The notes: generated by a model from the letters alone, not told the origin. Shown: positions 1,213-27,688, counted from the first letter of the stretch. The stretch: 37,585 bases of DNA from Methylococcales bacterium (GCA_003584875.1 QVQD01000198.1:1-37585), one strand, 5' to 3'. Program-made: numbers and translations.

Positions 1213-3927
1213 TTATAGTGGTAATTTTTTCATCAGCTCTAATGCACTTTCAAAATCAAAACCACCTACAGCTTGTTGGATTTCTTTTAACAGTGGGTCA
1301 ATAGCTGTTCCATGTGAGCTTTGCAATAATTCTTCTAATACCTCACCAGCACTGGTGTCGTCATCTTCTAGGAGATTTTTCAGTTGTTGGGTGAGTTTTT
1401 TAAAGGCTTGATCCGATATGGGATCCGTTGTCTTTGTTGATGACTTTGCTGAGACCAACGAGGCTAAACCTTTAATCACAATATCAAGCTCTATTACAGT
1501 CAATGCTAAAAGGTCTGAAATAACCTCTTGGTTACTGCCTTTGTGACAAGCCGTTTCAAGTTTAGCGGCTGCCGCATAAAGTGCATTTGCACCAATGTTT
1601 CCAGCGGTGCCTTTTAAGGTATGTGCAGTACGAGCTTGGGCTGCAGGGTCATCACTGCTAGCCGCTAATGTAAATAACTCTGCAAAATTAGCTTGCCCAT
1701 CGTTAAACATAACGAGTTGTCGATGATAAAGCTTTATGTTGTTCATCGTGGTTGCCAGACCCACTTTCATGTTGATGCCCGGCAATGTCTCAGGTAAGGT
1801 CGGTAAGGCTGGGTTATTTTCTGGATGCTCAGCTACTTTAGGCTCTAAATTAACGCTAGGCTTAGCAGGCCTAATCCATTTAGCCATGGTTTCAAACATG
1901 GTTTGAAGATGTAAGGGTTTTCCAATATGGTCAAACATACCCGATGCGATGACTTTTTCTTTATCACCAGTCATCGTATTGGCTGTCATGGCTATGATCG
2001 GCAGTTTTGCCCAGTCAGGATTTTTACGAATTTCTCGCGTGGCAGTAAAACCATCCATGATAGGCATTTGACAATCCATCAAAACGCCATCAAATTGCTC
2101 GCCAGAATTAAGTATATCAAGTGCTTCTTGGCCATTTTCGGCTAGCTTAATGCGAATATCCGCGCTACTTAATAGTTCTATGGCGAGCTCTTGGTTCATT
2201 TCATTATCTTCGACCAGAAGAATATAAGCGCCTCTGAGCAAAGCCATCATTTTTTCAGTGTTATCACTCTTGTCATCAGAAAGTTTTGCGTCTGCACCTT
2301 CATAGCCTAATGACTTGACGGTCTTCCTAAGCAGATGGCTGGCAATGATGGGTTTCATTAATACCGCCTGTAAATCTATGCCGTGTTTCTTTGCAGATTC
2401 ACGTGCATCATCTCTACTAAATGCAGTTACCATGATGTAAGCAGGTTGTTTAGATAAACTTAAGTTTTCAGTGCGCTTAATGGTTTCAATGCCATTCATG
2501 TTAGGCATGCGCCAGTCTACATAAAGCAGTTCATAAGGTGAATTCAATTTATCTGCGATCATTAGCATTTCTAGGGCTTGATGACCATTGTCGGTAATGT
2601 CAACGACTAAGCCTAGTCCTTGTAACATTGAGGCCATAATTTGCAGTGCCATCTGATTATCATCAACTACCAGTGCACGTATGCCCTCAAGTTCGTTTGA
2701 GCCCCATAGCTGCATAGGGCTGATTTCAACGCTGTCGTTAATACCAAAGCGAGCATGAAAATGAAATGTAGAACCTTGGTCAGGTACGCTTTCTACCCAA
2801 ACATGTCCATCCATGAGTTCAACTAGCTTCTTGGTAATGGCAAGACCTAAGCCAGAGCCGCCATATTTTCGTGTAGTTGATGAGTCTGCCTGACTAAAGG
2901 ATTGAAACAATTTGTTGCATTGTTCCGATGTCATGCCTATGCCAGAATCTTTTACCCAAAAGTGTAAGGTAAGGCCTTCAGAGTCTTCAGCAACAGATTC
3001 TATGCCGATAATGATTTGACCTTGGTCGGTGAACTTGATGGCATTATTACTCAGATTGACTAAAATTTGTTCAAGTCTAAGAGGATCACCTATCAGATGA
3101 TTAGGTAGGTTTTTAGCTTGGCTAAATAATAACTCAAGACCCTTTTCTTCTGCATAGATACCGATTAGGTTCACTAAGTTATCGAGTACATGATCAAGCT
3201 GGAAGTGAGTTTGCTCCAAGGTCATTTTGTCCGCTTCGATCTTGGAAAAATCCAGAATATCATTAATGATGCCCAACAAATTTTCAGCGGCACGACTAAC
3301 ACGCGCTATATAGCCGCGTTGTTGGGCATTGAGGTCTGTTTTAAGTGCAAGGCTAGTCATGCCGATAATCGCATTCATAGGGGTGCGAATTTCATGGCTC
3401 ATGTTAGCTAAAAAATCAGATTTAGACTGAGCAGCTTGTTCGGCAATGGTTTTAGCTTTATCAAGCTCTATGTTTTTAGCTTGTAGGTTCAAAAACAAAT
3501 CTTCACGAGAGTGAAGGTTGATGATGTCGGTTAATTGATTAAAAATTTCAGCGTTAAAGTTTATGGTATTGAATTGATAATTCACCAATAGCGTAAAGAT
3601 AAAGTTTTCAATGATCAGTTCTGAAGAAAGTCTACCCAAAGAAATACTCTTTAAGGTTTCTATGTTGGGTTCTGGTCCTATCGCTGAAAAAGCGCATTGC
3701 AACTGGAGGCTGTTATTTTTTTGGGGCGCTATCCATAGTTCTAATAACGGTTTATTTCCAGACTTTCTAAGCCAACGACACAACTCTGAAATCTCGGAGA
3801 CCAAGCGCGTGCTTATTATTGAGTCCAGTTTGAGTAAATTCGCCAATTCACGAACTTTATTGCGCGCATCAAACAGGGAGGTGTCGGTGGTCAAATTAAT
3901 TTGACCTAAAAAATCTATCTGTTCCAT
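1213..3927 (-). CDS. Hybrid histidine kinase with two receivers and HPt, stressosome-linked
   Basis: Cytoplasmic hybrid sensor kinase of about 904 residues with no transmembrane segment. Order: an unusual N-terminal region (about 1-160), HisKA with [14 protein letters not shown] (phospho-His near 178), HATPase_c (N-box LSNNAIKF, G boxes DSGIGM and GGSGLGLA), a receiver with the acceptor Asp in LLYVDWRMP (about 471), a second receiver with LMDCQMP (about 618), and a C-terminal HPt domain with HTLKGTAGN (His about 769). A full internal His-Asp-His phosphorelay is therefore present. The N-terminus ([20 protein letters not shown]) loosely resembles the RsbT/RsbW fold without its ATP-binding residues. 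The track begins at a TTG (3942); I prefer the ATG at 3927, which overlaps the upstream rsbT-rsbX gene by 13 bases and implies coupling. It is the last gene of the operon and the likely output of the stressosome. Confidence 0.9.
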
Positions 3928-5021
3928 TTTATTACTATGCAAGAAGCATCATCATGAGTTTTGCCTAGAAGATCTACTAGGCGATGGGCGATAGTATTCG
4001 CATCCAGAAAACGAAGCTTAAGGGCTTCTTTTTTAATTAAAGATTCAGATAAACCATCAGTGAACATAATAGCCATATCTCCTGGATTGAAGTGGGTTGA
4101 TTGTTCATTATAACTAGGTAAACGTTGTCCGAGTATGCCGTCACGAGAAACCCCTCGCCATTTTTTATCATTAAATACGATAAGGTTAGTATTACCTATG
4201 CCAGCATAAGTGACTATTTGTTTAGTGGCATCAAAAAAAGCTAAGCCCATCGCTGCACCAATCGTGCCTTTTGCAAGTTGATCAAGTTTAGTCATTAAGC
4301 TGGAGAGGTTTGAAGAGGCTATTTTTTTAAGTCCGTTAAGCAATAGTAAAGCCATCTTATGTGCTTCTGGGCCATGGCCGGTAGCATCTACAATGCTCAA
4401 TAAATAACCCTGCTCTAAAGGGATGGCTAATACTTGATCTCCTGAGACCCTATATCCTGGATAGGCGCGGGTACGATTACCAATTTCAAAATTGATGAGT
4501 GGCGATGCTTTGCTCAAGGTAGCATTTCTAAATTCTAAAAGTCTTTCGGATGTTGAAGAATAGAAGGCCTTTGTTGACGATAAAACTTGAAGCTTAATAT
4601 CAACTTTGATGTTTTTTCTTGCAAATACACAAGTGCCATGACCTAGGTTAGAATGAATTTCAAAAGTATCGGCAATGCGTTTGACACCGGATAAGCCTAA
4701 GCCTAGTGTACCGCTAGAACTAAAATTTTCCTGCATGGCTTGCTCTACATTGTCAATGCCAGGACCAGTATCTGTTGCGAGCACTTCAATTTCTACAGTG
4801 CCAGGCCATTCGTAAGAGCGTAGTTCTATATAACCTGGACTTGCATATTTAATAATATTGCTAGCTAGTTCAGAAATAATAGTAGCAATTAATGATTTGT
4901 CCACAGCGTTGGCGCCTATTAAAGGTTGCCAATTAAGAGTATGGGTAATTGCAATATTTAAGTCTATTTGTTCATTTATAAATAAGCGACAGTTAGTAGA
5001 ACAAACATTGTCTTGTAGCAT
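3915..5021 (-). CDS. RsbT-RsbX fusion: serine kinase plus PP2C-type phosphatase
   Basis: A 368-residue two-domain protein. Residues about 15-137 form an RsbT-like GHKL serine kinase: N-box [32 protein letters not shown] and GHGT match the switch kinase that phosphorylates RsbS/RsbR. Residues about 178-366 form a SpoIIE/RsbX-like PP2C phosphatase: [29 protein letters not shown] and HDDAS supply the metal-binding Asp residues. In known stressosome operons these are separate proteins; here opposing kinase and phosphatase share one chain. It starts 2 bases after the rsbS stop and overlaps the kinase gene downstream, so it is part of one operon. Target identity (the RsbS- and RsbR-like proteins next door) is inferred from context. 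Family assignment is strong; the RsbX label rather than generic SpoIIE phosphatase rests on motif and context. Confidence 0.88.
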
Positions 5022-5023
5022 GT

Positions 5024-5407
5024 TCAGACTATGTCCTTTATCTTATTTAAAACTCTGTCTATATCATCAAGTCCAGAGACGGTATTGATACCTGAGATAT
5101 CAGCACCTGCTGAGATTAAAAAAGCGACTACCCCCGCATTAAAGCCTGTGAAAATTGTTTCTGCGCCCATTAATTTAATCATCAGGGCGATGCTATGTAG
5201 GGCATTAAATTCTGTTAAATCTAATATGGCGATTGCAGATAAATCGAAAATAACTAGGGCAATTCTTTGGGTTTTTATATTTTCCAGCACCTCAGAATTT
5301 AATACAGCTATCATCTCTGGGGTGATGTCGCCTTGCAAAATGATCGATAATCGATTATTTGTTCGGCTCATGGAAACGCCGCTGTTTTTAGATAAATCCA
5401 GGCTCAT
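5024..5407 (-). CDS. RsbS-like STAS domain protein
   Basis: A 127-residue single STAS domain, the RsbS-type scaffold of a stressosome. The core LVIFDLSAIAILDLTEF followed by LMGAETIFTGFN and GVVAFLISAGADI aligns with RsbS (typical VDSF, LLG, VG, LVELG). The Ser normally phosphorylated by RsbT is replaced by Leu in ILDL, though a Thr (about 65) follows at once and could be the acceptor. It lies 24 bases after rsbR and 2 bases before the RsbT-RsbX fusion, the classic R-S-T-X order. The start gives an N-terminal extension of about 15 residues; the internal ATG at Met13 is an alternative, and neither has a clear Shine-Dalgarno. Confidence 0.85.
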   Translation of the reverse strand: MSLDLSKNSGVSMSRTNNRLSIILQGDITPEMIAVLNSEVLENIKTQRIALVIFDLSAIAILDLTEFNALHSIALMIKLMGAETIFTGFNAGVVAFLISAGADISGINTVSGLDDIDRVLNKIKDIV

Positions 5408-5431
5408 AGTGTAGCTACAGTTATTGATTAA

Positions 5432-6313
5432 TTAAGAAATAGTCACTTTGATCATTTTTAAAGCAATTTCAAAGGCGTCACGTAGTGTGGATGTTGATTT
5501 GATTTCCCCAACATCTACGCCCAGTTCAATGATGGTTCTAGCAATGGCAGGTGATATTCCAGAAATAATAGCTTCACAGCCCATTAATTGAGTGGCTTTA
5601 GTGATTTTAATTAATTGGTTAGCTACGGCGGTATCAACTGATGCGACGCCACTAATATCTAAAATAAAAACTTTGGTACGTTCTTCAGCAATTTTAGAGA
5701 GTGACTTATTCATGATGTCTTGGGCGCGACTGGAATCTAAGATGCCAAGCAACGGTAATAGCAATATGCCCTCCCAGATAGGTGTGACTGGGGTAGCCAT
5801 TTCTATCATGGTTTTGTGGCTTTCTTCCAGACGAGCATTATGGATATGAGTAATAATGTCCATGACTAAGTAAGTGTCAAGAAAGAAATGTTTTGTGACT
5901 GCATTAGCGATGTCACCGATATTTGCAGGCATAGGCTTGATATTCCAAAGTTCATCAGCTATCAGTTGGAAAGCCTTAGAGACACCTGCAAAATAAATAT
6001 CATTGGGTAAGCCAATTCGGGCATGGACTTCACCGATACGATAACGATCAGTTACATACTGTTCATTGATATTAGCGGAAAAGAAACTTTGCCAGTAGCT
6101 AAGTTGTTGCTTTTTTATTTGCATTAAGTTATTGCTATTAGTGCCAAAAAACATTGAAAATTCTTTTTGTGTGACTAACCATGCATACCATTTTTCAATG
6201 AGTTGGGGTAGGAAATTGTCAAGCAATAAACCTGCATTACGTATGAGTTTAAAGTCTGTGTCAGTGATGACAAATTTATCTTTGAGTTCTTCTAGGTTTA
6301 TTTTTTGATCCAT
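5432..6313 (-). CDS. rsbR: RsbR-type globin-coupled STAS stressosome sensor
   Basis: A 293-residue protein. Residues about 10-165 are a globin-coupled-sensor (protoglobin-like) domain; VHARIGLPNDIYFAG holds the expected proximal haem His (about H97) in the family's H-x-x-IGL context. Residues about 175-290 are the RsbR STAS domain: PIWEGILLLPLLGILDSSRA, then LDISGVASVDTAVANQL and GISPAIARTIIELGVD. Both phospho-acceptor positions known in RsbR are occupied, Ser194 in LDSSRA and Thr228 in VDTAVA. The probable role is to bind O2 or another gas at the haem and set RsbT kinase activity in the stressosome. The start ATG has a good upstream AGGAAAC ribosome binding site. It is the first gene of the four-gene operon. 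Confidence 0.92.
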   Translation of the reverse strand: MDQKINLEELKDKFVITDTDFKLIRNAGLLLDNFLPQLIEKWYAWLVTQKEFSMFFGTNSNNLMQIKKQQLSYWQSFFSANINEQYVTDRYRIGEVHARIGLPNDIYFAGVSKAFQLIADELWNIKPMPANIGDIANAVTKHFFLDTYLVMDIITHIHNARLEESHKTMIEMATPVTPIWEGILLLPLLGILDSSRAQDIMNKSLSKIAEERTKVFILDISGVASVDTAVANQLIKITKATQLMGCEAIISGISPAIARTIIELGVDVGEIKSTSTLRDAFEIALKMIKVTIS

Positions 6314-6688: not shown

Positions 6689-8674
6689 TTAACGATTTAG
6701 CCATTGAACTAAAGTAGACAATAATTCATTTACATTAATGGGTTTGCCTACAAAATCATTCATGCCTGCAGCGAGACTGCGTTGTCGTTCTTCATCAGTT
6801 ACGCTGGCACTTAAAGCGATTACGGGCAACTTTGCATAGTGTGGATTTTTACGAATCTCGGTGGTGGCTTGGTAGCCATTCATGACGGGCATGTGTAAAT
6901 CCATTAACACCACATCAAAATCTTGTTGCTCTAATGCACTTAAGGCTTCAGAGCCATCATTAGTCAAAACTATGAGGCTGGCACCATGACGTTTAAGCAC
7001 TTGATGAATGATCTTCTGGTTGAAGCTATCATCTTCCACGACGAGTATTTTAAAGCCGATCAAGGCTTCTGTTTCTGAGCGTATGTCAATTGTTGGGGTG
7101 TTGGTTGATGGTGTTTTAATGCTAGTTAGTTCCGATGTAGGCGTCGTTGGAAGTAGCAATTCAAAGCTAAAACAACTGCCTTCCCCTGGTTGGCTGTCTA
7201 CTTTAATTTGACTCTTCATCAACGCGACTAAGTCTTGACTGATGACTAAACCTAAACCTGTGCCTTCAAATTTTCTAGCATAACCATCGTCTACTTGGCT
7301 AAAGGGCATAAACAATTTATCTTGTTGATCTTCGGCTATACCAATACCAGTATCTGTTACGGCAAATAATAATCGTGCTTGATGCTCATCAAGCTCTAGC
7401 AAGCTAATGTTTAGCGATACTGAGCCTTGTTGGGTAAATTTGATAGCATTGCCAAGTAGATTAGTGAGTGCTTGTCTTAAGCGAAAGGGGTCGCAGATTA
7501 GGTGTTCAGGCACTCGCTCATCGATGTCTATTTTTAAAGCTAAACCTTTGCTCTGCGCAGTGTCTATGAATAAATTATAGAGAGTTTTTTGCAAGTCATG
7601 CACATTGAATGGACTTAGGTTAAGGCCCATTTTTCCGGCTTCGAGTTTCGATAAATCTAGTATGTCATTAAGAATGACCATCAGATTGTTGGAGGCGGTA
7701 TTGATGTTTTTTAAATAATCGCTAACTTTTTGCGGCATATCATAAAGCAAAGCCAATTCTGAAAAGCCTATGATGGCACTCATGGGTGTGCGAATTTCAT
7801 GAGACATATTAGCTAGAAACTGTGACTTAGTTTTGCTTAAGTTTTCAGCGCGTTCTTTGGCTGCTAGAAGTAGTGCTTCGTTTTGTTTACGTTCGGTGAT
7901 GTCAATAAAGCTGACTACGCAGCCGATAATTTCCTCATTATTTTTAATCGGGTGTGCTTCGTATTGTACTGGGAAACTAGTGCCGTCTTTACGCCAGAAT
8001 ACCTCTGCTTCATCTGAGGAATTTGAATGACCTTGCAGGGCATTGTATATCGGGCAAAGTTCTGCGTTATAAACAGAGCCATTTGCATGGGCATAATGAA
8101 AGAGTTGGTGGTTATTTTTGCCTAGAACTTCTTGTTGTGACTCATAACCCAGCATAGTTAACGCTGATGCATTCATAAAAATACAATCACCGTTAATGCC
8201 AATACCGAAGATGCCTTCACCCGTGGCGTTAAGTATCAAATCTAGGCGCAAATGGGCTTGAAGATTTTTGTCTTTTAATAAGTCGTTCGCAGCTTTAATC
8301 CTTAGATGATTTTTTACACGTGCCATTAATATAGCAGGGCTGATCGGCTTAGAAATATAATCGACCGCGCCTAATTCTAAACCAAATTGCTCGTCTTCAA
8401 CATCAGACAATGCGGTTAAAAATATGATCGGGATATGGGCTGTTATAGGATTTTCTTTAAGTCGTTTACAAACCTCGAAGCCCGAAAGTCCGGGCATCAT
8501 AAGATCGAGTAAAATCAGGTCGATGCTGTTGTCGCTCTGAGCAATTGCAAGTCCTTTTTCGCCATTAATTGCCGATTTGACCTTGTAATAGTTTCTGAGT
8601 AATCCTGATATTAGATTAATAATGTCAGGAGAGTCGTCTATGATGAGAATGACTGGTTTTAAGGTTCCGCTCAT
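6689..8674 (-). CDS. REC-PAS-histidine kinase-REC hybrid regulator
   Basis: A 661-residue cytoplasmic phosphorelay protein. An N-terminal receiver (residues 8-120; acidic pair in LIIDDSPD, acceptor Asp57 in LLDLMMPG, Lys109 in SKP) is followed by a PAS domain (about 142-262, ending in the PAC motif FIDITERKQ). Next come HisKA with [14 protein letters not shown] (His292), HATPase_c (N-box LTNLLGNAIKFT, DTGIGI, GTGLGLVI), and a C-terminal receiver with VLMDLHMP (Asp592). There is no transmembrane segment. The PAS domain lacks the LOV Cys motif, so its ligand is unknown. There is no DNA-binding output domain, so it must signal through a partner. It lies 375 bases upstream of rsbR in the same direction, probably as its own transcription unit. 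The start lacks a strong Shine-Dalgarno. Confidence 0.9.
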   Translation of the reverse strand: MSGTLKPVILIIDDSPDIINLISGLLRNYYKVKSAINGEKGLAIAQSDNSIDLILLDLMMPGLSGFEVCKRLKENPITAHIPIIFLTALSDVEDEQFGLELGAVDYISKPISPAILMARVKNHLRIKAANDLLKDKNLQAHLRLDLILNATGEGIFGIGINGDCIFMNASALTMLGYESQQEVLGKNNHQLFHYAHANGSVYNAELCPIYNALQGHSNSSDEAEVFWRKDGTSFPVQYEAHPIKNNEEIIGCVVSFIDITERKQNEALLLAAKERAENLSKTKSQFLANMSHEIRTPMSAIIGFSELALLYDMPQKVSDYLKNINTASNNLMVILNDILDLSKLEAGKMGLNLSPFNVHDLQKTLYNLFIDTAQSKGLALKIDIDERVPEHLICDPFRLRQALTNLLGNAIKFTQQGSVSLNISLLELDEHQARLLFAVTDTGIGIAEDQQDKLFMPFSQVDDGYARKFEGTGLGLVISQDLVALMKSQIKVDSQPGEGSCFSFELLLPTTPTSELTSIKTPSTNTPTIDIRSETEALIGFKILVVEDDSFNQKIIHQVLKRHGASLIVLTNDGSEALSALEQQDFDVVLMDLHMPVMNGYQATTEIRKNPHYAKLPVIALSASVTDEERQRSLAAGMNDFVGKPINVNELLSTLVQWLNR

Positions 8675-9090: not shown

Positions 9091-9870
9091 TTATTTCATG
9101 AAATATTTAGTATATTCTTGGGCATTGGTAAGTTTTTGTTTGATGAATTCTCCTGCGGGATGCGTATCTAAATCCGTCCATGATAAATTAGAATCTTGTT
9201 CATCCTGAGTACTATAAAATCCCATATCCCAGTTAGCAAAATGTCGTTCTGTTGTTCGTTCGAGTACAAGTAAGGTTACATTTGTATGGCGTTTATCTTT
9301 TTGTATATGATCAAAAAATAGTGACGTAACAGCACTAAAATTCCCTTCTAAAACTTGCAACCACCATCCTTTGTTGTAGAGTAAAACACCTGTAATCTCG
9401 AGTTCTTTATTAATTTTACGTGCTACTTTTAAAATATCTATAACATCAGAAGCTTTAGTTTCACCTACAGCATGGCTACCGTAAATTAAGGTAAATAAGG
9501 GATTTTTTTCTTCGAATACGCGTTCAGGTTTGTTTATATTGTCCAGCCAGGAAACTAATTTTTTTATATCTGTTTTAGAACTTAAGTAATCAACTTCACC
9601 CTGAGTCAAATTGCGGTTGATTGAATTATCAAGAACTAGACTAGGGAGTGAAGACTTATGAAGAAATTCGTCCAAACGACTGACTTCATCAGCGTTAAGC
9701 TCAACATTAATAATTAATGCATCAAATTGATTGGAAGATGTCGCTAATAATCTCAAGGTGTCCTCTAAATTATTGAAAATTGACGGCACATGCCCCCAAC
9801 AATAAAGTGCAACGGCTAAAGCATTTGTTTCTTCATTTTCTAAAACCACGATGTTATGGCTTTTTTGCAT
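9091..9870 (-). CDS. Blue-light BLUF photoreceptor with degenerate receiver domain
   Basis: A 259-residue cytoplasmic protein. Residues about 5-118 look like a CheY-type receiver (IVVLENEETNALAVALYCWG, FDALIINVEL) but the phospho-acceptor Asp is replaced by Asn near residue 55, so it is probably a pseudo-receiver. Residues about 125-222 are a BLUF domain: LFTLIYGSHAV, ITGVLLYNKGWWLQVLEG, KDKRHTNV and FANWDMGF. The residues that define the flavin photocycle are all present at the spacing of AppA: Tyr130, Asn154, Gln172, Trp214, Met216. It should bind FAD and respond to blue light. No enzymatic output domain follows, so signalling is probably by protein contact, perhaps through the pseudo-receiver. 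A strong GAGGAGAAG ribosome binding site precedes the ATG. It follows the LOV gene by 134 bases on the same strand. Confidence 0.9.
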   Translation of the reverse strand: MQKSHNIVVLENEETNALAVALYCWGHVPSIFNNLEDTLRLLATSSNQFDALIINVELNADEVSRLDEFLHKSSLPSLVLDNSINRNLTQGEVDYLSSKTDIKKLVSWLDNINKPERVFEEKNPLFTLIYGSHAVGETKASDVIDILKVARKINKELEITGVLLYNKGWWLQVLEGNFSAVTSLFFDHIQKDKRHTNVTLLVLERTTERHFANWDMGFYSTQDEQDSNLSWTDLDTHPAGEFIKQKLTNAQEYTKYFMK

Positions 9871-10004: not shown

Positions 10005-10460
10005 TTATTTAGATAACATGGCGATAATCGCGTTCAACTCCCTTATTTGATTATCAGCTTCAACTTGCTCAGTCACATCCTGTTGAACACCCAAATAGTA
10101 AATAATCCGATTTTTTTTATCTAACAAAGGGGTGATTTTTAATCGATTGTAAAATAGCGAACCGTCTTTTTTGTAGTTTCTCAGCATGACCTCAATCGAT
10201 TCCTGTTTCTTTATCGCTGCTGATATTTGTTGACTCGCTTGTTGATTTCGATCGTCAGCTTGCAAAAAACGACAATTAAAACCGATAGTATCTTCTTGAC
10301 TGAACCCCGTTAGTTTTTCAAACGCTTTATTGGCATAGACGATTGGGGCATCAGGTAAATCTGGATCTGTAAGTACTACTCCGTTCACACATTCATCAAG
10401 AATATCAGTTAATAAATGTGGTATGAGCCCCCCAGAATCTTTTTCAGCTACAAAAAGCAT
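10005..10460 (-). CDS. Short LOV blue-light receptor 1
   Basis: A 151-residue protein made of one LOV (PAS) domain with short flanking helices. GFNCRFLQADDRNQ contains the flavin-adduct Cys (Cys63). Other LOV signatures follow: LRNYKKDGSLFYNRLKITP (flavin-contacting Asn residues) and YYLGVQQDVTEQV (the conserved Gln). The C-terminal helix (about 131-151) is the usual J-alpha/dimerisation element. No effector domain is attached, as in the short LOV proteins known from Pseudomonas. It is a close paralogue of the LOV protein at 12384-12839, with identical length and Cys position. The ATG has a good GGAG ribosome binding site. It is divergent from the small secreted-protein gene and upstream of the BLUF gene on the same strand, possibly co-transcribed. 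Confidence 0.92.
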   Translation of the reverse strand: MLFVAEKDSGGLIPHLLTDILDECVNGVVLTDPDLPDAPIVYANKAFEKLTGFSQEDTIGFNCRFLQADDRNQQASQQISAAIKKQESIEVMLRNYKKDGSLFYNRLKITPLLDKKNRIIYYLGVQQDVTEQVEADNQIRELNAIIAMLSK

Positions 10461-12335: not shown

Positions 12336-12383
12336 GCCCATTAAGCTAGTCCTATGACTAAATTGTAAGAATTGGAGAAAAAT

Positions 12384-12839
12384 ATGCCTTTTATTGTTGA
12401 AAAAGATACCGGATTAATACCACAAGTTTTATCTGCTATTTTAGATGAATGTGTTAATGGAGTGACCTTAGCTGATCCAGATATGGAAGATGCGCCTATT
12501 GTTTACGCCAACAAAGCCTTTGAGCGTTTAACAGGTTATGGGCAAGAAGATATTATTGGGTTTAACTGTCGCTTTATGCAAGGTGAAGATAGAGATCAAC
12601 CTGCACGACAAATAATATCCGAAGCGATGAAAAATTCTGAAAGTGTGGAAGTTACCTTGCGTAATTACAAGAAAGATGGATCTTTATTTCACAATCGTTT
12701 AAAAATAACCCCGTTATTTGATAAAAAACACAGAGTTATTTATTATCTTGGCGTCCAATTTGATATTACTCAGCAAGTCGATGCAAGTAATGAAATTAAA
12801 GAACTCAATTCATTAATAGAAGCAATGAGTCCAAAATAA
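12384..12839 (+). CDS. Short LOV blue-light receptor 2
   Basis: A 151-residue single LOV domain protein. GFNCRFMQGEDRDQ carries the adduct Cys (Cys63), with LRNYKKDGSLFHNRLKITP and YYLGVQFDITQQV completing the flavin pocket. It is clearly a duplicate of LOV1 at 10005-10460, most alike in the core (DECVNGV, APIVYANKAFE, NYKKDGSLF). The ORF track opens at a TTG (12372), but the ATG at 12384 has a proper TTGGAGAAA ribosome binding site 6 bases upstream and gives exactly the length of its paralogue, so I use it. There is no effector domain. It sits second in the operon ending in msrPQ, 5 bases before the hydroxylase gene, so its output is probably a co-encoded or separate protein partner. Confidence 0.92.
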   Translation: MPFIVEKDTGLIPQVLSAILDECVNGVTLADPDMEDAPIVYANKAFERLTGYGQEDIIGFNCRFMQGEDRDQPARQIISEAMKNSESVEVTLRNYKKDGSLFHNRLKITPLFDKKHRVIYYLGVQFDITQQVDASNEIKELNSLIEAMSPK

Positions 12840-12844
12840 ACGTT

Positions 12845-13678
12845 ATGAATGCCACAGAAACTGCAAGTGCTAACGGCGGCCTCTATTTCAATGAGGCTCT
12901 ATTTGGTTTAGCCATCATCGCTTTTATAGTGCTGGTGATTATGGAAAAGCGCCATCCTTTTAGGGCTTTTCCGGCTAAAATTTTTAAAGAGTCTTTTGTT
13001 ACCAATACCACTGCATTTTTGGTTAACAATTTAATATTGAGTACCTTGCGTGCGTCTTCATTGTTCTTAGTTGCTCAACAATTTGCTACACATGGCTTAT
13101 TGAGTGGTATGGAAAATGGGCCCATTAAATGGCTGTTAGCGTTTGCTTTTTTTGATTTGGCCATTTATCTGTGGCATTTTGTCAGTCATAAGTCTGAATA
13201 TTTGTGGCGTTTCCATAAAGTGCATCACAGTGATAAAGGTTTCAATGTTTCTACTGGCTTTAGATTTCATGTCTTTGATTTATTGATTGAGATAGTCTAC
13301 AAATGTGTCTTTGTAGTTGTGATTGGAGTTGATGCTTATGTGGTATTGTCGATTGAAATAGTTGAATTGTTTTTTATATTGTTTCATCACGCCAACATCC
13401 GAGTACCTAATGAAGATTTAATTTCAAATGTATTCATTACGCCTTCTTTACACAGAACACATCATTCTAAAAAACGTTCTGAACACGATAGTAACTATGG
13501 CATTGTTTTTTCATTATGGGACCGAATGTTTGGTACTCGTAAAGAATTGGTGCCAGAACAAATTGGTTTAGACATCATTAATGCTGATAACTTCATTCAA
13601 TTATTCTCTTTGGCTTTTATCACTGAGGTTAAGTTAAGAAAACTCTTGGGATGGATTCCAAAGGGTAAGAAAAAATGA
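12845..13678 (+). CDS. Fatty acid hydroxylase / sterol desaturase family membrane di-iron protein
   Basis: A 277-residue integral membrane protein with the eight-His motif of the family: WHFVSH (H111, H115), FHKVHH (H124, H127, H128), FHHAN (H181, H182) and HRTHH (H203, H206, H207). These ligate a di-iron centre for O2-dependent hydroxylation or desaturation of a lipid substrate. Hydrophobic spans occur at about 17-33, 52-80, 93-112 and 150-182. The substrate cannot be read from sequence; relatives act on sterols, fatty acids, carotenoids or sphingoid bases. It follows the LOV gene by 5 bases and its stop overlaps the msrP start (ATGA), so it is translationally coupled to both. The assignment to the family is firm; the substrate is open. 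Confidence 0.9.
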   Translation: MNATETASANGGLYFNEALFGLAIIAFIVLVIMEKRHPFRAFPAKIFKESFVTNTTAFLVNNLILSTLRASSLFLVAQQFATHGLLSGMENGPIKWLLAFAFFDLAIYLWHFVSHKSEYLWRFHKVHHSDKGFNVSTGFRFHVFDLLIEIVYKCVFVVVIGVDAYVVLSIEIVELFFILFHHANIRVPNEDLISNVFITPSLHRTHHSKKRSEHDSNYGIVFSLWDRMFGTRKELVPEQIGLDIINADNFIQLFSLAFITEVKLRKLLGWIPKGKKK

Positions 13679-14631
13679 TTATCAAAACTCATAAAAGTAT
13701 TCCTGGTTCTGAAATTACTGATCCGTTAGTTTTTAAGCAACGTAGGCAGTTAATTAAGGCAATGCTGGCGTTAGGAATAACGGGTTCAGGAATTTATTCA
13801 GGTTTAGCGTTTGCTAATGAAGCCAAATGGCCAACTGTTGCTAAAGGCTATGAGCCCAAAGCACCATTATCGGCCACTGCAGCTGATATAGTAAAAAACC
13901 ATACCAATTATTATGAGTTTACTTATAACAAAACCGACGCAACCAGCTTAGCCCAAGCATTACCTATTGATCCTTGGTCTGTTGAAATTACGGGTGAAGT
14001 CGAAAAGCCGGGTGTTTATCATTTAGAAGATATTTTAACTCAGCAAACTCTTCAAGAATATATCTACAGATTTCGCTGTGTTGAAGGTTGGTCTATGGTG
14101 GTGCCTTGGATGGGTTTTCCCTTAGCTAATTTATTAAAAAAAGTTAAGCCTTTGTCCAGTGCTCAATTTGTGAAATTTACCACCTTGCAAGATGCTAAAA
14201 GTATGCCTAATCAAGCAGTAAATAGCATGCTGGAATGGCCTTATGTAGAAGGGTTACGGATCGACGAGGCGATGCATCCTTTAGCTATTTTAGCCTCAGG
14301 TATGTACGGTGAAGCTTTGCCTAAACAAAATGGGGCACCTTTAAGGTTAGTCGTGCCTTGGAAATATGGCTTTAAAAGTATTAAAGCCATAGTCAAGATT
14401 GAGCTGCTTAAAAGAGCGCCTTTAAGTACTTGGAGCAAAGCGGCTCCTAACGATTATGGTTTTTACGCCAATGTAAATCCCGATGTTCCGCATCCTCGTT
14501 GGAGTCAAAGTAGCGAACGCGTTTTAGGTGCTGGGTATTTTACACCGCGTCGAAAAACAGAGTTATTTAATGGCTACGCTGATGAAGTTGCTGCATTGTA
14601 TAGCGGCATGGATTTACGGCATTTCTTCTGA
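13675..14631 (+). CDS. msrP: Protein-methionine-sulfoxide reductase catalytic subunit MsrP
   Basis: A 318-residue periplasmic molybdoenzyme of the sulfite-oxidase fold that reduces methionine sulfoxide in oxidised envelope proteins. A twin-arginine signal (RRQLIKAMLALGITGSG) ends near AFANE at about residue 49. The molybdenum-ligating Cys is Cys135 in YRFRCVEGWSMVVPWMGFP. Further MsrP signatures are YVEGLRIDEAMHPL, NGAPLRLVVPWKYGFK, DYGFYANVNP and HPRWSQSSER, all very close to E. coli MsrP. Length is normal. Its start overlaps the hydroxylase stop by 4 bases and its stop overlaps the msrQ start by one base, so the pair is coupled. Its presence in an operon with a LOV photoreceptor suggests repair of light- or oxygen-driven damage (inference). 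Confidence 0.97.
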   Translation: MIIKTHKSIPGSEITDPLVFKQRRQLIKAMLALGITGSGIYSGLAFANEAKWPTVAKGYEPKAPLSATAADIVKNHTNYYEFTYNKTDATSLAQALPIDPWSVEITGEVEKPGVYHLEDILTQQTLQEYIYRFRCVEGWSMVVPWMGFPLANLLKKVKPLSSAQFVKFTTLQDAKSMPNQAVNSMLEWPYVEGLRIDEAMHPLAILASGMYGEALPKQNGAPLRLVVPWKYGFKSIKAIVKIELLKRAPLSTWSKAAPNDYGFYANVNPDVPHPRWSQSSERVLGAGYFTPRRKTELFNGYADEVAALYSGMDLRHFF

Positions 14632-15287
14632 TGGTTTTGCGTAATATAAAGCCGTATACACTATGCTTTAGCATTTGTTTATTGCCGTTATTAGGCATAA
14701 TTGTCGATATGCTCTTCGGTAATTTAGGTGTCGATCCTATCTTATCGTTGCACATCCGCTTAGGCGATTGGTCTTTACGTTTGTTATGGTTAACCTTGTG
14801 TATTACCCCCTTACAAACGGTGACTCAATGGCGCGGTATGTCACAATATCGAAAAATGTTAGGTCTATACACTTTCTTTTATGCGAGTTTGCATGTCTTA
14901 GTTTATTTATGGATGGACCAAGGCTTGGTATGGAGTGCGATTACTAGGGATATTATTGAAAGTTCGTATATCTGGTTTGGTTTAATAGCTTTTTTGCTAA
15001 TATTTCTATTGGCAATTACTACGCCATTGATAATGGTAAAAAAGCTGGGTAAAAATTGGAAAAAATTACATCGCTACATTTATATAGCCTCTATAGCCGT
15101 TATTATTCATTATTATTGGCAACTTAAAGGGAATATGGCAGAGCCTTTGTTTTATTTGCTCATATTGACTTTATTACTAGCCTTTAGATTAGCTTTATGG
15201 TTTAAAAACCGAAAATTTGCAAAATTGATGATTCCTACAACTCGAAAGATAAATGTGGTAAAGGATGAATCATTTACAGAAGATTAG
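14631..15287 (+). CDS. msrQ: Haem-binding membrane subunit MsrQ
   Basis: A 218-residue inner-membrane b-type cytochrome of the ferric-reductase-like family that passes electrons to MsrP. About six transmembrane helices can be seen, starting with the core CFSICLLPLLGIIVDML. Likely haem-ligating His residues occur in HIRLGDWSLRLLW, YASLHVLVYLW and IIHYYWQLKG, and KKLGKNWKKLHRYIYIA is the family hallmark before a helix. It starts at the A of the msrP stop (TGATG), the last gene of the five-gene set. The length is as in other bacteria. Assignment is secure from the motifs and the msrP partner. Confidence 0.95.
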   Translation: MVLRNIKPYTLCFSICLLPLLGIIVDMLFGNLGVDPILSLHIRLGDWSLRLLWLTLCITPLQTVTQWRGMSQYRKMLGLYTFFYASLHVLVYLWMDQGLVWSAITRDIIESSYIWFGLIAFLLIFLLAITTPLIMVKKLGKNWKKLHRYIYIASIAVIIHYYWQLKGNMAEPLFYLLILTLLLAFRLALWFKNRKFAKLMIPTTRKINVVKDESFTED

Positions 15288-18484: not shown

Positions 18485-20677
18485 TTACCTTTTTTCTACA
18501 TCAGCACTAGTTTCATAATTATCCAGTGATACCTTTTGATAAATTCCGGTTAATTTGCGTTTAAATTCATCAGAGATTAGTCTTGAATCCTGCTTGCTTT
18601 TTACTACACGTGGCGTAATTAAAATAACTAGTTCATTCTTAGATCGATTATAAGTGGTGTTGCCAAATAATGAACCTATCCATGGCAGATCATATAAAAG
18701 AGGAAAGCCACTTTTGACTGCGGTGTTAGTGTCATCGATTAAACCACCTAAAACGATGGTTTCTCCATCATTAACGGCAATTGAGCTTTCAATTTCTTTT
18801 TTCTGAATGGTGGGCGAAGTAGCGACCCCTGTTGTTGTTAATACCGGCACACTAAATACTTGTTTAATATCCATAATAACCATGCCGTTCGAATTGACTC
18901 GTGGAGTTACTTCTAAAGTCACACCTGTATCTTTGTATTGAATTGAACTTCCTAAGGCTATGGTTGGTGTTGATCCACTAGCTACGGGTAGGGATGAAGT
19001 ACTCGTTTGTATAGGTACCTGATCACCTACGTTAATTTTTGCTTTCTGGTTATTCAATACCATTAAAGACGGTGATGAAATAACATTAAGGTTACCTTTG
19101 TCGGCTTGTGCGCTCAATATACTATTAACGGCACCAGAGTTATAGACTGCACTTAAACCACCGGTAGCAAAGGCAGAAGTCGCTGCATAGGCAATACTTC
19201 CTAGTTGCTGGGCACCGCCCAAGGCGTTACTCACAGAACTATTGTTTTTATTTAAATACCAAGCGATACCATATTTTAAATCATCTGTTAATTTAACCGA
19301 AGCGATCGTGGCATCAATCAGTACTTGCAATGGGACGATATCAAGTTGTTCAATAATAGGCTTAATTACAGCATACTCTTGTGCTGTAGCAACAATGACG
19401 ACTGCATTATTAGCTTTATCGGAAATTATTCTGACATTGCCTACATTTGAAACTTTGGCAGTACCTGTGCCTGAGCTGCTAGTTGATTTATGTGTCGATG
19501 TAGGTGTTGATGAATTAGTGCTTGATGATCCACCTAGCGATGTATCTGTTGAAGACTTATTCGTTATGGTTGCGGCTGTTTGGCCAGGGGCTACTTTTGC
19601 AGAACTCGATTTCTTCTGGGCGTCGGCAAAAATGTCATTTAAGGTCTCTGCTAATTCTTCAGCATTTGCATGTTGAACTTTATAAACATTGACTCCGCCA
19701 CCTCCAGAAGCTGAGTTAGCTCTGTCTAACCTAAGCACCCAATTCTCAATATCTTTTAAATAATGTCCTTGATGGGTAACAGCCAAAACGGCATTTAATC
19801 GCTGTATCGGTATAAACTGAAAGAATTCAGATTCATCAGATTTAGCTTTTTGATGAAAAATACCTTCTAGTTCTTTAATAACGGTATCTGGATCAACATG
19901 AGCAAGGGTAAACAAGCCAAAAGACCGTCCTTTTAATAAATCAATGTCAAATGTGCTAATTAGCTCTATGACTCTGGCTATTTCATCAGCAGTCCCAGAT
20001 GCCACTATGATATTGCGACTGCCATCAATATTAAGTATGGTTTTTTCATGTACCAATGGCTTTATGATATCGGCAACTTCTTGGGCTGCAACATTTTTGA
20101 CTGGAATAACTCGGGTTTGATAGCCTGTTTTACTACTTGCTATATTGGAGGTGTATAAGGCTTCTGCAGTGGGTTCAATGTGATAAATACGACCATCTTT
20201 AACTAAGGCAGCATTGTTCATCCGTAGAACCATTTCTAGAGTAGGAATCAACTCTTCTTTGCTTAACGCTTCTGTAGTTTGTAAGGTGACTTTGCCGACT
20301 ACTTTTGGACTGAGAACATAATTCTGACCGAGAATGTCGCTCAAAACCACTTTAGCAACCTCGCCAATGTCTGCATCGTCAAAATTTAAGCTATAAGTTC
20401 CAGCATTTGGTGAACTAACTCCTCTATGCTGTGGAATAGAGTCGGGGACAAAGTGATCAGTTCCTGGATATATTTCACTAGCTGTTTTTGAGGCTTTAGT
20501 GGTAGGCGGTGTGTTTTGCAAGCCTTTAATAGCCACATCTTGCTGATTATCTTGTTGTACAGGTATGATCGGTGTTAAAGGTAATTTATCCGCTGTAAAA
20601 GGTTTTAATGCCTCACAGCCAGTTAGAGATAAACTCATCAAAAGAACATAGGAGATTGTTTTTTTATTGGTTGTCAT
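18485..20677 (-). CDS. gspD: Type II secretion outer-membrane secretin GspD
   Basis: A 730-residue lipoprotein that forms the outer-membrane channel of the T2SS. The signal peptide ends in SLSLTGC (lipid-modified Cys about 21), so it may be self-piloting. The N0 domain (about 95-165, YSLNFDDADIGEVAKVVLSD) is followed by N1-N3 repeats (TRVIPVKNVAAQEVADIIKP; VNVYKVQHANAEELAETLNDIF). The secretin core runs from about 450 to 700 (VLIDATIASVKLTDDLKYGI, VPIQTSTSSLPVASG, GETIVLGGLIDD, NELVILITPRVV). A Ser/Thr-rich insert of about 55 residues in N3 (SSSTNSSTPTSTHKSTSSSG) is longer than usual. The track starts at a TTG; I use the ATG at 20677, which overlaps gspN by 14 bases. It is the last gene of the operon, an arrangement of the Xps-like type. 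Confidence 0.95.
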   Translation of the reverse strand: MTTNKKTISYVLLMSLSLTGCEALKPFTADKLPLTPIIPVQQDNQQDVAIKGLQNTPPTTKASKTASEIYPGTDHFVPDSIPQHRGVSSPNAGTYSLNFDDADIGEVAKVVLSDILGQNYVLSPKVVGKVTLQTTEALSKEELIPTLEMVLRMNNAALVKDGRIYHIEPTAEALYTSNIASSKTGYQTRVIPVKNVAAQEVADIIKPLVHEKTILNIDGSRNIIVASGTADEIARVIELISTFDIDLLKGRSFGLFTLAHVDPDTVIKELEGIFHQKAKSDESEFFQFIPIQRLNAVLAVTHQGHYLKDIENWVLRLDRANSASGGGGVNVYKVQHANAEELAETLNDIFADAQKKSSSAKVAPGQTAATITNKSSTDTSLGGSSSTNSSTPTSTHKSTSSSGTGTAKVSNVGNVRIISDKANNAVVIVATAQEYAVIKPIIEQLDIVPLQVLIDATIASVKLTDDLKYGIAWYLNKNNSSVSNALGGAQQLGSIAYAATSAFATGGLSAVYNSGAVNSILSAQADKGNLNVISSPSLMVLNNQKAKINVGDQVPIQTSTSSLPVASGSTPTIALGSSIQYKDTGVTLEVTPRVNSNGMVIMDIKQVFSVPVLTTTGVATSPTIQKKEIESSIAVNDGETIVLGGLIDDTNTAVKSGFPLLYDLPWIGSLFGNTTYNRSKNELVILITPRVVKSKQDSRLISDEFKRKLTGIYQKVSLDNYETSADVEKR

Positions 20678-21335
20678 GATCAATGATTTCAAAACCGCCT
20701 ACAGCGGGTTGTGGGTTATTAGGTGCAGTAAATGGATTAAATGGATTAGGCACGTCAGCAATGGGAGGATTACTGGCTGCGTCTGGTGCTGCTGCTGGTA
20801 TTATAGGTGTATTTGGATTATTGGAAAGTTCCTTCGGCTTGGATTTTTGCAGTAATAATTCTTTAGATAGATTATTTTGCTCAAATAGAACCCGATCTTT
20901 TTTAATTTCTGTTAGCTTCCAGCCATCAATCTCAGCACCAACAATTAATTTTCGATATCTGGTTTTGGTTCCTTTTGTTATTGCTCGACTCAGTAAAGCT
21001 GTTAATCCATTGGCTGTAGTATAAACGCCATTAAGTTGCCAGTCGAAAGTATTGGCTGTTATTTGAATATTTTGTGGTGCTTCTTTTGAGGGTTCTATTA
21101 CTGCTCTTCTACCTTTTATAAACAGAGGTCGAGTCGATAAATCTTGATAATTTTCCTCAGACTGTTTAAGTAGATCTATAACAGGCATTTCATCAAGAGA
21201 TTGCGTTTCTTTTATTGCAACGCTTGAATTTAATGCTTTTTTCTGCTGCCATGCCGAGTAAAACCACTCGGACACTAAAGTCAATGTACATGCTAAGCAA
21301 ATGACCGCTAGAACTGTATGTGTTTTTCTGTTCAT
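20664..21335 (-). CDS. gspN: T2SS GspN / GspC-like inner-membrane protein
   Basis: A 223-residue bitopic protein. A transmembrane helix (about 8-25, VLAVICLACTLTLVSEWF) is followed by a periplasmic part with LSTRPLFIKGRRAV, the RPLF-x-RR motif common to GspN and GspC proteins. A compact beta domain (about 93-165, FDWQLNGVYTTANGLTALLS ... WKLTEIKKDRVLF) resembles the GspC homology region that contacts the secretin. The tail is Pro/Asn-rich and disordered, and no PDZ domain is present. As no separate gspC is seen in this operon, this protein may take that role. It overlaps gspM by 4 bases and gspD by 14. T2SS membership is sure; the letter N rather than C is from position and size. Confidence 0.8.
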   Translation of the reverse strand: MNRKTHTVLAVICLACTLTLVSEWFYSAWQQKKALNSSVAIKETQSLDEMPVIDLLKQSEENYQDLSTRPLFIKGRRAVIEPSKEAPQNIQITANTFDWQLNGVYTTANGLTALLSRAITKGTKTRYRKLIVGAEIDGWKLTEIKKDRVLFEQNNLSKELLLQKSKPKELSNNPNTPIIPAAAPDAASNPPIADVPNPFNPFTAPNNPQPAVGGFEIIDHDNQ

Positions 21336-21922
21336 TCTGCTAGCTTTCTCATGAAACTAACTGCTTGAAAATTAACATTTAATACATTGCTGGCTTCAAT
21401 CTTATGTGTAACTAAATTCATAGTTCCGTGTTGCATAGGTCTAATATCGATTTGGTCAATTATAATTAATGGAGTCGATGTTTCTATTTTGTAAAGTACT
21501 TTTCGCAATACCTCGCTGCTCCCCATCATTCTTACGCTAATCGTTATTTTACTAAACTTATTTTTATTATTGACTGGAAGAGCTTGGGTGCTGCTTAATT
21601 CACCGCCTGCATCAACAATTGTTTTTTTAATAAACGCCTGCATTTCAGCTGAGGCTAAAGCATCTGTTTCCTGGCTATTAAAGTAACCTTGTTGATCATG
21701 TTGTTGTTTTATTTTGGCCATACTAGCAATGACCGTATTTTTTGTGGCCAAAATGCGTTCATATTGTTGTAATCTAAACATCAAGTCATTTTTAGATTTA
21801 CTCAGTTCCAGGCCTTTGCTAAGCAAAGGTACCATAATGATTAGGCAGAAAATAAGCACTATAAAAATTAATAAGCCTACTGCTAGCCAGCGTTGTTTAT
21901 TTTGAATAGTTAGGATATTCAT
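21332..21922 (-). CDS. gspM: Type II secretion protein GspM (PilO-like)
   Basis: A 196-residue inner-membrane assembly-platform component. A short cytoplasmic N-terminus and one transmembrane helix (about 13-33, WLAVGLLIFIVLIFCLIIMVPLL) lead into a coiled-coil (SKSKNDLMFRLQQYERILATKN) and a ferredoxin-like periplasmic domain (ITISVRMMGSSEVLRKVLYKIETSTPLIIIDQIDIRP). This fold pairs with GspL. It starts within the gspL stop (ATGA overlap) and ends overlapping gspN in the same way. Sequence identity in this family is low, so assignment uses topology plus position. Confidence 0.88.
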   Translation of the reverse strand: MNILTIQNKQRWLAVGLLIFIVLIFCLIIMVPLLSKGLELSKSKNDLMFRLQQYERILATKNTVIASMAKIKQQHDQQGYFNSQETDALASAEMQAFIKKTIVDAGGELSSTQALPVNNKNKFSKITISVRMMGSSEVLRKVLYKIETSTPLIIIDQIDIRPMQHGTMNLVTHKIEASNVLNVNFQAVSFMRKLAE

Positions 21923-23022
21923 TGATGTGCTCCTTTTGGAGTTACATCAACAGTAATCTGGAAACGTTCGATCTTATTAATGGCATCTTGGGTCACGGGC
22001 GACGCAAATCGGACATGAGTAAACAACTCAGATGCTTCAAGTATTGCTATCAATGTTGAAGCGGTTGGTGATTCGCCTTGTATTTGTAAGTGTCCATCTG
22101 AATATTGTACATAACTTAACCAAGTATCATCATTTATAAGTGAGCTTAAGGTATTTAGCATTTCAATCATGGGAGGCGCAGCACTTTTTTCTGCTAGCAA
22201 TTGACGAGTTTCATCAATAGAAGCATCTATTTCTTTCTGCAAGGCTTTAACTTTTTTAGCGTCTTTTTCTAGAGCATTAGTTTTGAGTTGTAAAGCATCA
22301 ATGGTTTTGCTTTCAAGCCAAATAGGAGTTGCTATAACCGCCACTAATAATAAACCGGTCAACATTATGAGTGTTGAGTTAATTATATGGGTTATTTTTG
22401 GCGTTTTTTGTCTTAGTGGTTCAGGCAGTAAATTAAAGTGGTCATCAATTCGATTAATATCTAAGGTTGGATCGTCTAAATAAGCCAATTGAGGTGACAA
22501 GCCCATAGCGCTGCAATCATCAAAGAGTCCATCAAGAATTGCTCGAGTTGTTAATATTAACATCACCCTAATCTGTCCCAGTTCATTGCTATCATTCAGT
22601 CGCTTAACTGTAAAATAAACCTGTTCAGGCTTAAAGGGGGTATAACGATCGAGTTCGTAGGATACTACTTGTAAGAGATTTTCTTTTGCCACAGAAGGTA
22701 AGCTGAGTTCTTTTTGAATAGCGTATTGACTAGACAATCTGAGTATTACTTTAGCTTTAATGAGTCGTTCATCTTTTTCTCGCAGAGTTTTAAATTGCGC
22801 TAGGCCAGATTCATCTCGGTCTACTGTTGCCAGTAGTTCGGACTCTTCCTTGTTTTGATAAGTGATTTTTAACTGATTGTTATCAAGGCTTACGATGAGA
22901 TAGCCTTGTTGGTCAGTAACCAAGTCTTTGAGTTTATCTGGGACTAAAAAGTCTAATTCACGCTTCCACCAGCGTAAAAACTGCTTAAAGTCTAGATCAA
23001 TTGTTGAATTCAGGTTCAGCAT
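21919..23022 (-). CDS. gspL: Type II secretion protein GspL (PilM/PilN-like)
   Basis: A 367-residue bitopic protein. The cytoplasmic half (about 1-205) has the GspL features LRLSSQYAIQKELSLPSVAKENL and VVSYELDRYTPFKPEQVYF, the region that docks the GspE ATPase. A transmembrane helix (about 210-232, INSTLIMLTGLLLVAVIATPIWL) is followed by a periplasmic coiled coil (LKTNALEKDAKKVKALQKEI) and a PilN-like domain (MIEMLNTLSSLINDDTWLSYVQ). It overlaps gspK by 26 bases upstream and gspM by 4 downstream. The role is to link ATPase and pseudopilus platform in the inner membrane. Confidence 0.92.
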   Translation of the reverse strand: MLNLNSTIDLDFKQFLRWWKRELDFLVPDKLKDLVTDQQGYLIVSLDNNQLKITYQNKEESELLATVDRDESGLAQFKTLREKDERLIKAKVILRLSSQYAIQKELSLPSVAKENLLQVVSYELDRYTPFKPEQVYFTVKRLNDSNELGQIRVMLILTTRAILDGLFDDCSAMGLSPQLAYLDDPTLDINRIDDHFNLLPEPLRQKTPKITHIINSTLIMLTGLLLVAVIATPIWLESKTIDALQLKTNALEKDAKKVKALQKEIDASIDETRQLLAEKSAAPPMIEMLNTLSSLINDDTWLSYVQYSDGHLQIQGESPTASTLIAILEASELFTHVRFASPVTQDAINKIERFQITVDVTPKGAHQ

Positions 23023-24028
23023 ATTGTTTTACTAATAATTCGGTCATTGCATCAACAAATAATGACTTACTACGAGTCGTTAGCTGTTGCCATTTTAAAA
23101 CTTGATAAGGACTCTGTTGAAATGTGCTGTTTTGCGCCACTAAGAAAGCGGATTGTTTTATGACCACGCTGATTATGGCACTAGCTTCATCATTCAATAT
23201 AGCCTCAGATACTAATGTTATTGTATTGATTTGTTCAGGTATTGGTGTTTGTCCAGGCGATGGTGCTTGCCCAGTTGCGTTAGTAGGTGTGCTGCTAATA
23301 GTCTGTGTTGGATTAGATGTAAATGCAGGTGCTGGTAAGTTATTTATTGCGCTGTCCAATCGGGCTTTCATATAAGAATCTATAAGACTAGTATCCACGT
23401 CGGGAATTATCTGCAAAACTTCTTTAGCGGCAAGTTGTTCGGAAACTTTCGATTGTCCTGAATAAACCGTTATTAAAGGTTCTATCTGAGAAAATATTGA
23501 TTCATTCATGCCCAGTACTAACTGTAATTCTTCAAGAGATTCAAAAGGTTTGTTTCTAGGCTGATAATTTAAGCCAGCATCTTTATATTCTTTTTTTTCT
23601 GCGCCATCGTTATGAACTAGATCATCTTCGTCACGCCAATCGATAATGGCTGCAGCTAATTTTGATTTTTGCTCTGCTTGGTTAGTAACTGTGGCCATTA
23701 GAGCTTCCAGCAAAACTTGATCCGCTTTATTAATATCTATCTTGCCTTTTTCTGCTAATAGTCGAACCCGAATTTTGGCATCGCTCGAAATTATTTCATA
23801 AATACTGCCGTCTGTCCTCCAACGTTTATTTTGATCAGGATTCAATAACATCAGTTCTGCCATCGCTATTCCTGATTCGGCAACTGATATGGCTTGAGCA
23901 TTATTTTTAATGCCTGCAGTAATAGATGCTTCTCTGCGCATTGTTAGAACGAAACTGCCCGCCATAATGGTCAGCAAACTCAATACCCATAGTACTAGAA
24001 CCAATGCCATCCCTTTTTGTTTTGTCAT
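22997..24028 (-). CDS. gspK: Type II secretion minor pseudopilin GspK
   Basis: A 343-residue minor pseudopilin that caps the pseudopilus tip with GspI and GspJ. The leader is KQKGMALVLVLWVLSLLTIMAG; Gly5 is the processing site, and unlike other pseudopilins the +1 residue is Met rather than Phe, common in GspK. GKIDINKADQVLLEALMA, AAIIDWRDEDDLVHNDGAEKKEY and FESLEELQLVLGMNESIF are the diagnostic GspK segments, the second being a Ca-binding Asp-rich loop. A Pro/Thr-rich linker (about 232-268) breaks the last domain. Start and stop overlap with gspJ (1 base) and gspL (26 bases). Confidence 0.94.
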   Translation of the reverse strand: MTKQKGMALVLVLWVLSLLTIMAGSFVLTMRREASITAGIKNNAQAISVAESGIAMAELMLLNPDQNKRWRTDGSIYEIISSDAKIRVRLLAEKGKIDINKADQVLLEALMATVTNQAEQKSKLAAAIIDWRDEDDLVHNDGAEKKEYKDAGLNYQPRNKPFESLEELQLVLGMNESIFSQIEPLITVYSGQSKVSEQLAAKEVLQIIPDVDTSLIDSYMKARLDSAINNLPAPAFTSNPTQTISSTPTNATGQAPSPGQTPIPEQINTITLVSEAILNDEASAIISVVIKQSAFLVAQNSTFQQSPYQVLKWQQLTTRSKSLFVDAMTELLVKQYAEPEFNN

Positions 24029-26458: not shown

Positions 26459-26475
26459 GGTTAGTATTGTTTCCG

Positions 26476-27687: not shown

Positions 27688-27688
27688 C

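Follow-up and report, generated by a model that had tools for sequence, protein, structure and literature searches.

A globin-type stressosome operon in a Methylococcales bacterium whose hybrid histidine kinase carries a degenerate RsbT-like input domain

How does a stressosome signal to an output protein that lacks the RsbU_N domain? The question was left by a study of the Vibrio vulnificus stressosome (Heinz 2022, PMC9237108), in which eleven downstream architectures, including phosphorelays and cyclic di-GMP (c-di-GMP) modules, were described, RsbU_N was undetected in most downstream proteins including the studied Vibrio kinase (VvD1), and transient phosphorylation was suggested. It is raised again by a four-gene operon of a Methylococcales bacterium, which comprises rsbR, rsbS, an RsbT-RsbX fusion gene and a hybrid histidine kinase gene (R-S-TX-HK). 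The window analyzed is a whole contig of 37,585 bp (G000:C10) of a draft genome (3.03 Mb, 240 contigs), the closest relatives of which are Methylococcaceae/Methylobacter metagenome-assembled genomes (MAGs) from lakes. The N-terminal domain of the kinase is RsbT-like in ancestry and predicted fold, and offers a concrete answer: this recurrent domain may be the link between the stressosome shell and its output.

The operon and the input domain of its kinase

The kinase comprises HisKA, HATPase_c, two Response_reg (REC) and Hpt domains by Pfam, with the phosphorelay residues H178 (HisKA), D471 (REC1), D618 (REC2) and H769 (HPt), numbered from the ATG start codon; residues 1 to ~160 have no Pfam match, and this domain was overlooked in an earlier note on the DNA. 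The profile of the domain matched stand-alone RsbT with an hhalign probability of 96.3% (E 1.6e-9, a pairwise value and not one of a database search; the match covers the N-terminal half of the domain, ~77 columns), whereas no comparison with an unrelated domain (RsbS, REC, SpoIIE, the HATPase of the same kinase, or RsbU_N) exceeded 0.3%, and none of 30 column-shuffled controls exceeded 1.6%; the profile also retrieves genuine RsbTs. An AlphaFold2 model of the domain (predicted local distance difference test 81.5, predicted template-modeling score 0.72) has the order beta-alpha-alpha-beta-beta-beta-beta-alpha, and its top Foldseek matches in the PDB are complexes of UsfX, SpoIIAB and RsbW (E 1.7e-5 to 1e-3; 9-14% identity). 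The N-box Asn and the G1 and G2 motifs are absent (SELCRW vs SELARN; members aligned). A longer model, of moderate confidence, predicts that the last helix of the domain (residues 141-194) is continuous with the DHp helix bearing H178. By sequence profile and predicted fold, the domain is a degenerate RsbT/SpoIIAB-like GHKL domain without ATP-binding motifs, and a candidate for the coupling role in outputs that lack RsbU_N. RsbU_N itself was rejected as the input domain of the kinase, for which no Pfam match to PF08673 (control L077, 2.5e-10) and a profile comparison of 0.3% were obtained.

RsbR is represented by a Protoglobin domain (6e-22) and a STAS domain (1e-13), and matches V. vulnificus RsbR (PDB 7o0i), a member of a stressosome of solved structure, over nearly its full length (phmmer, 1.1e-79). 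In alignment with the latter, the haem-type residues distal Y43 and proximal H97 are retained, as residues only, and the STAS domain keeps the acceptor-type threonines T177 and T228; RsbR is a probable O2-sensing haem globin. RsbS has its strongest PDB match in V. vulnificus RsbS (7o0i; 2.2e-7). In an alignment of 24 RsbS, L64 replaces the acceptor serine (S59 in Bacillus, S56 in Listeria) with T65 next to it, and a Thr or Ser at this +1 position is kept throughout the Methylobacter clade. The loss of the serine, also missed in the earlier note, at first raised doubt about the identity of RsbS; the doubt was dropped, as Vibrio RsbS in the same alignment likewise lack the serine, and V. brasiliensis RsbS does not conserve the Bacillus phospho-sites either (PMC4976288).

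The fusion protein matches HATPase_c (1e-11) and SpoIIE (1e-16), and its RsbT part contains the ATP-binding motifs (N-box E51 and N55; G1 DTGPGI; G2 GTLGLGL). RsbX thus directly follows RsbT as in the Vibrio type, here within one protein. In L076, L168, L169 and Vibrio L177, RsbT and RsbX are encoded by two neighboring genes, after which comes a kinase of the same architecture (plus a PAS domain in Vibrio), and for this reason the fusion is probably the derived state. An assembly artefact was ruled out by conservation of the fusion in ~10 genomes. That its GHKL domain is the SpoIIE-associated second GHKL domain of L033-type operons was also rejected: the tree sets the fusion GHKL domain apart from these, although it does not resolve the nearest stand-alone RsbT. 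No paper on an RsbT-RsbX fusion as sole RsbT was found in the open-licence literature.

The operon thus contains the core order R-S-T (sensor-STAS RsbR, single-STAS RsbS, GHKL RsbT), and its catalytic motifs are intact throughout: in the kinase, its two receivers and HPt, and in RsbT and RsbX. The earlier note had described four minus-strand genes (6313-1213) with spacings of 24 (R-S), 2 (S-TX) and -13 bp (TX-HK): all open reading frames (ORFs) were confirmed in place, and the overlap of 13 bp holds for a kinase start at ATG 3927; TTG 3942, the start in the listed ORF, is also possible. The domain families that it named were matched for Protoglobin, SpoIIE, HisKA, REC, HPt and the STAS domain of RsbR, while the STAS match of RsbS (3e-4) lies slightly below the Pfam cut-off and the GHKL domain of RsbT was matched as HATPase_c, with no HATPase_c_2 protein above the cut-off genome-wide. 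Its statement that no sigma factor, anti-sigma factor or RsbU is nearby agrees with the neighborhood, in which no RsbU, RsbV, RsbW or sigma-B was found. Genome-wide, no SpoIIE-family protein other than the fusion was found, nor any protein of the RsbU or RsbW type; for RsbV and sigma-B no separate genome-wide search was made beyond a STAS scan. Promoter-like sites are no commoner than in shuffles, and of nine terminator-like sites (shuffle mean 4.8) none is informative.

Conservation of the operon and recurrence of the input domain

The order R-S-TX-HK is conserved in ~10 genomes of the same genus (Methylobacter-like), although some contigs end within the operon, and is found in the betaproteobacterial-labelled MAGs L044 and L045; the planctomycete-labelled MAG L046 has the operon with an HD-GYP output. 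No relatives were found on the viral contigs searched, and a PHROGs search gave nothing useful.

The gene before rsbR encodes a REC-HD-GYP protein in several relatives (intact in L026, L029, L031 and L044). In the window and in G019 its place is taken by another hybrid kinase, the N-terminal REC of which is ~70% identical to that of the relatives' rsbR-adjacent REC-HD-GYP proteins, and which is possibly part of the same pathway. The REC-HD-GYP orthologue is encoded elsewhere in the genome (G000:C151; 85% identical to L026) and falls inside the rsb-adjacent clade (support 100/99); the gene neighborhood in relatives and in Vibrio suggests this c-di-GMP phosphodiesterase as the likely target of the phosphorelay. 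Core-deleted REC-HD-GYP genes with both flanks kept lie next to rsbR at L024:4339-5157, L027:383-1177 and L028:4010-4747. A transposase-like ORF (L024:8034-9245) lies where the G018 kinase ends, in a single-contig genome, as a natural loss of output.

The input domain recurs directly after RsbX or the fusion on GGDEF (L171), PAS-GGDEF-EAL (L172), GAF-HD-GYP (L046) and HK-REC-REC-HPt proteins. The match of the Vibrio sp. THAF64 kinase N-terminus (9e-5) covers only the C-terminal part of the domain, so it is probable, and not certain, that the Vibrio kinase bears the same domain. The kinases of L033, L034, L085, L173 and L174 carry an RsbT-like domain at the same place with ATP-binding motifs retained, and each of these operons encodes three RsbT-like GHKL domains (stand-alone RsbT, SpoIIE-fused, and kinase N-terminus). 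No paper on an RsbT-like input domain of stressosome outputs was found in the open-licence literature.

A second RsbR with globin and STAS domains (70% identity; haem residues retained) is encoded by a solitary gene at G000:C51 and also in G019, and none was found in the other congeners searched; a mixed-sensor stressosome is possible. The orphan gene (6982-7866 of that contig; L180) lies upstream of genes that look like SRPBCC, fatty-acid desaturase, FAD oxidoreductase and cyclopropane-fatty-acid-synthase genes.

The features of the locus are summarized in the table. Beside the stressosome genes lies a photoreceptor cluster, kept in G019 (L023), made up of one BLUF protein and a pair of short LOV-type PAS proteins (9091-9870 and 10005-10460, minus strand; 12372-12839, plus strand), the latter two with an NCRFLQ/NCRFMQ motif and ~70% mutual identity. 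Further genes of the window are predicted for a molybdopterin oxidoreductase and a ferric-reductase-like membrane protein (MsrP/MsrQ-like; 13675-15287, plus strand), downstream of a fatty-acid hydroxylase gene, and for a cluster resembling type II secretion (Gsp) genes (18485-29383, minus strand).

Table. Features of the stressosome locus, in coordinates of the window
Feature	Coordinates	Strand	Description
rsbR	5432..6313	-	protoglobin and STAS domains; Pfam, phmmer, alignment
RsbR protoglobin domain	~5852-6295
RsbR STAS domain	~5456-5788
rsbS	5024..5407	-	single STAS domain; PDB match, alignment
RsbT-RsbX fusion gene	3915..5021	-	GHKL kinase domain and SpoIIE/PP2C phosphatase domain
Fusion GHKL domain	~4602-5021
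Fusion SpoIIE/PP2C domain	~3924-4490
Hybrid histidine kinase gene	1213..3927	-	input domain, HisKA, HATPase, REC1, REC2, HPt
Kinase input domain	3442..3927	-	degenerate RsbT/RsbW/SpoIIAB-like GHKL fold; hhalign, AlphaFold2, Foldseek
Neighboring hybrid kinase	6689..8674	-	REC-PAS-HisKA-HATPase-REC; 375 bp upstream of rsbR

A proposed signaling route and its alternatives

We consider it fairly probable that the operon encodes an O2-sensing methanotroph stressosome of the Vibrio type, in which RsbT, once released, targets the RsbT-like domain of the kinase, and a phosphorelay leads to the REC-HD-GYP protein. The haem globin RsbR and RsbS would assemble through their STAS domains into a shell, in which the RsbT part of the fusion protein is held; upon loss of O2 from the RsbR haem, RsbT would phosphorylate RsbR (T228 and/or T177) and possibly RsbS (perhaps T65), and would be freed. 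Freed RsbT would engage the degenerate domain, probably by GHKL-GHKL pairing, and alter the coiled coil leading to the phospho-accepting H178; the phosphoryl group would then pass through REC and HPt to the unlinked phosphodiesterase, and the RsbX half would dephosphorylate the shell as a reset. For O2 loss and RsbT release, this is the best-supported reading by homology to the globin stressosome of V. brasiliensis, in which RsbT activity is O2-dependent and RsbT, once O2 is lost from the RsbR haem, phosphorylates the shell and leaves (Jia 2016, PMC4976288). For the action of RsbT on the kinase, the best-supported reading draws on how the input domain recurs and on its RsbT ancestry, and for HPt feeding the REC-HD-GYP protein, on the gene neighborhood in relatives and Vibrio. 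RsbT activates RsbU via an N-terminal domain and a coiled-coil linker, and such input domains were proposed to be exchangeable with kinases and cyclases (PMC12143880). The broader proposal, that in many Gram-negative stressosomes a degenerate RsbT-like domain on kinases, diguanylate cyclases or HD-GYP phosphodiesterases receives the RsbT signal, as a second, RsbU_N-independent coupling that would also explain VvD1, is put forward tentatively, at slightly less than even chances.

Several points weigh against the proposed route. Haem binding and O2 sensing, shell assembly, binding of RsbT to the kinase, the direction of kinase control and the phosphodiesterase as target are all steps that we infer; RsbS lacks the canonical acceptor serine, as in Vibrio; no interaction of VvRsbT with VvD1 was detected (Heinz 2022, PMC9237108); and the genome searches were made on a draft. 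In the window the phosphodiesterase gene has left the operon, three relatives (L024, L027, L028) have lost the HD-GYP core of the protein, and the G018 kinase is cut after residue 52, beside the transposase-like ORF, with R-S-TX kept; hence not every relative needs the output.

The input domain could also act on the shell and not on RsbT: as a pseudo-RsbT it would fill RsbT sites on the STAS shell, and the kinase would be recruited or released together with RsbT. Given its likeness to RsbT in sequence and fold, the domain could retain a STAS-binding face, and the top Foldseek match stems from an anti-sigma factor/antagonist (GHKL-STAS) complex. The STAS contacts of SpoIIAB with SpoIIAA lie partly around the ATP lid, however, and this lid is lost in the input domain; moreover, the kinases of L033, L173 and L174 bear intact RsbT-like domains, so that the role of the domain may vary. 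Such docking is judged unlikely. Lower still stands direct phosphorylation of the kinase by RsbT as a transient substrate, with the N-terminal domain only a fold relic or dimerizer, as published as a suggestion for VvD1 by Heinz 2022; it agrees with the failure to find a stable VvRsbT-VvD1 interaction (PMC9237108), but a mere relic leaves unexplained why an RsbT-derived domain recurs N-terminally on outputs that are otherwise unrelated and occupy the same place in the operon. That the neighbors are functionally separate, with the stressosome acting elsewhere and the kinase receiving its own signal, could be argued from the relative that lost the kinase yet keeps R-S-TX and from the unlinked phosphodiesterase gene; it is very improbable in view of the overlapping genes, the order conserved across genera, the input-domain pattern, and the phenotypes shared by delta-RSTX and delta-D1 mutants of V. 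vulnificus, in which RSTX is functionally linked to the two-component module (PMC10014275).

Comparison with known systems

The hallmark of the RsbRST core is a 1.8-MDa RsbR-RsbS-RsbT particle; such a particle is predicted for the window from its genes. With the Bacillus/Listeria operon (RsbR-S-T-U-V-W-sigB-X) it shares the RsbR/S/T core and the RsbX logic; it differs in its haem-type globin and phosphorelay output, and in the RsbU and RsbW-type proteins not found in the genome. With RsbU_N outputs (Moorella GGDEF; proteobacterial NreB-like kinases, e.g. L077) it shares an exchangeable N-terminal input domain followed by a helical linker, whereas its own input domain is RsbT-like GHKL. The canonical Methylobacter stressosome (L033/L034; R-S-T-[GHKL-SpoIIE]-HK-REC) belongs to the same genus, and likewise has a GHKL-SpoIIE fusion and a kinase with an N-terminal RsbT-like domain; in contrast to the window, its RsbS serine is kept, RsbT is separate, the RsbT-like domain of the kinase has ATP-binding motifs, and the RsbR sensor is unmatched by the protoglobin profile used.

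By its sequence, the system belongs to a published kind, the Vibrio-type globin RsbRSTX stressosome with two-component output. The globin stressosome with phosphorelay read in the earlier note is thus supported by sequence, synteny and characterized Vibrio homologues; the combination is not new, as Vibrio precedents have been published (PMC4976288, PMC9237108). In V. vulnificus, V. brasiliensis and Vibrio sp. THAF64 (L177; R-S-T-X-HK(REC-REC-HPt)-(REC-HD-GYP)) the shared features are a protoglobin RsbR (~44-45% identical), an RsbS in which the Bacillus phospho-serine is absent, RsbT, RsbX, an HK-REC-REC-HPt protein with a probably related N-terminal domain, and a REC-HD-GYP partner. The variant features of the window are the RsbT-RsbX fusion, a kinase without PAS domain, the unlinked REC-HD-GYP gene, and the orphan RsbR paralogue, while V. 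vulnificus RsbR has no paralogues (Heinz 2022, PMC9237108). The locus extends O2-sensing stressosomes with a likely c-di-GMP output to freshwater and lake methanotrophs, in which methane oxidation is O2-dependent.

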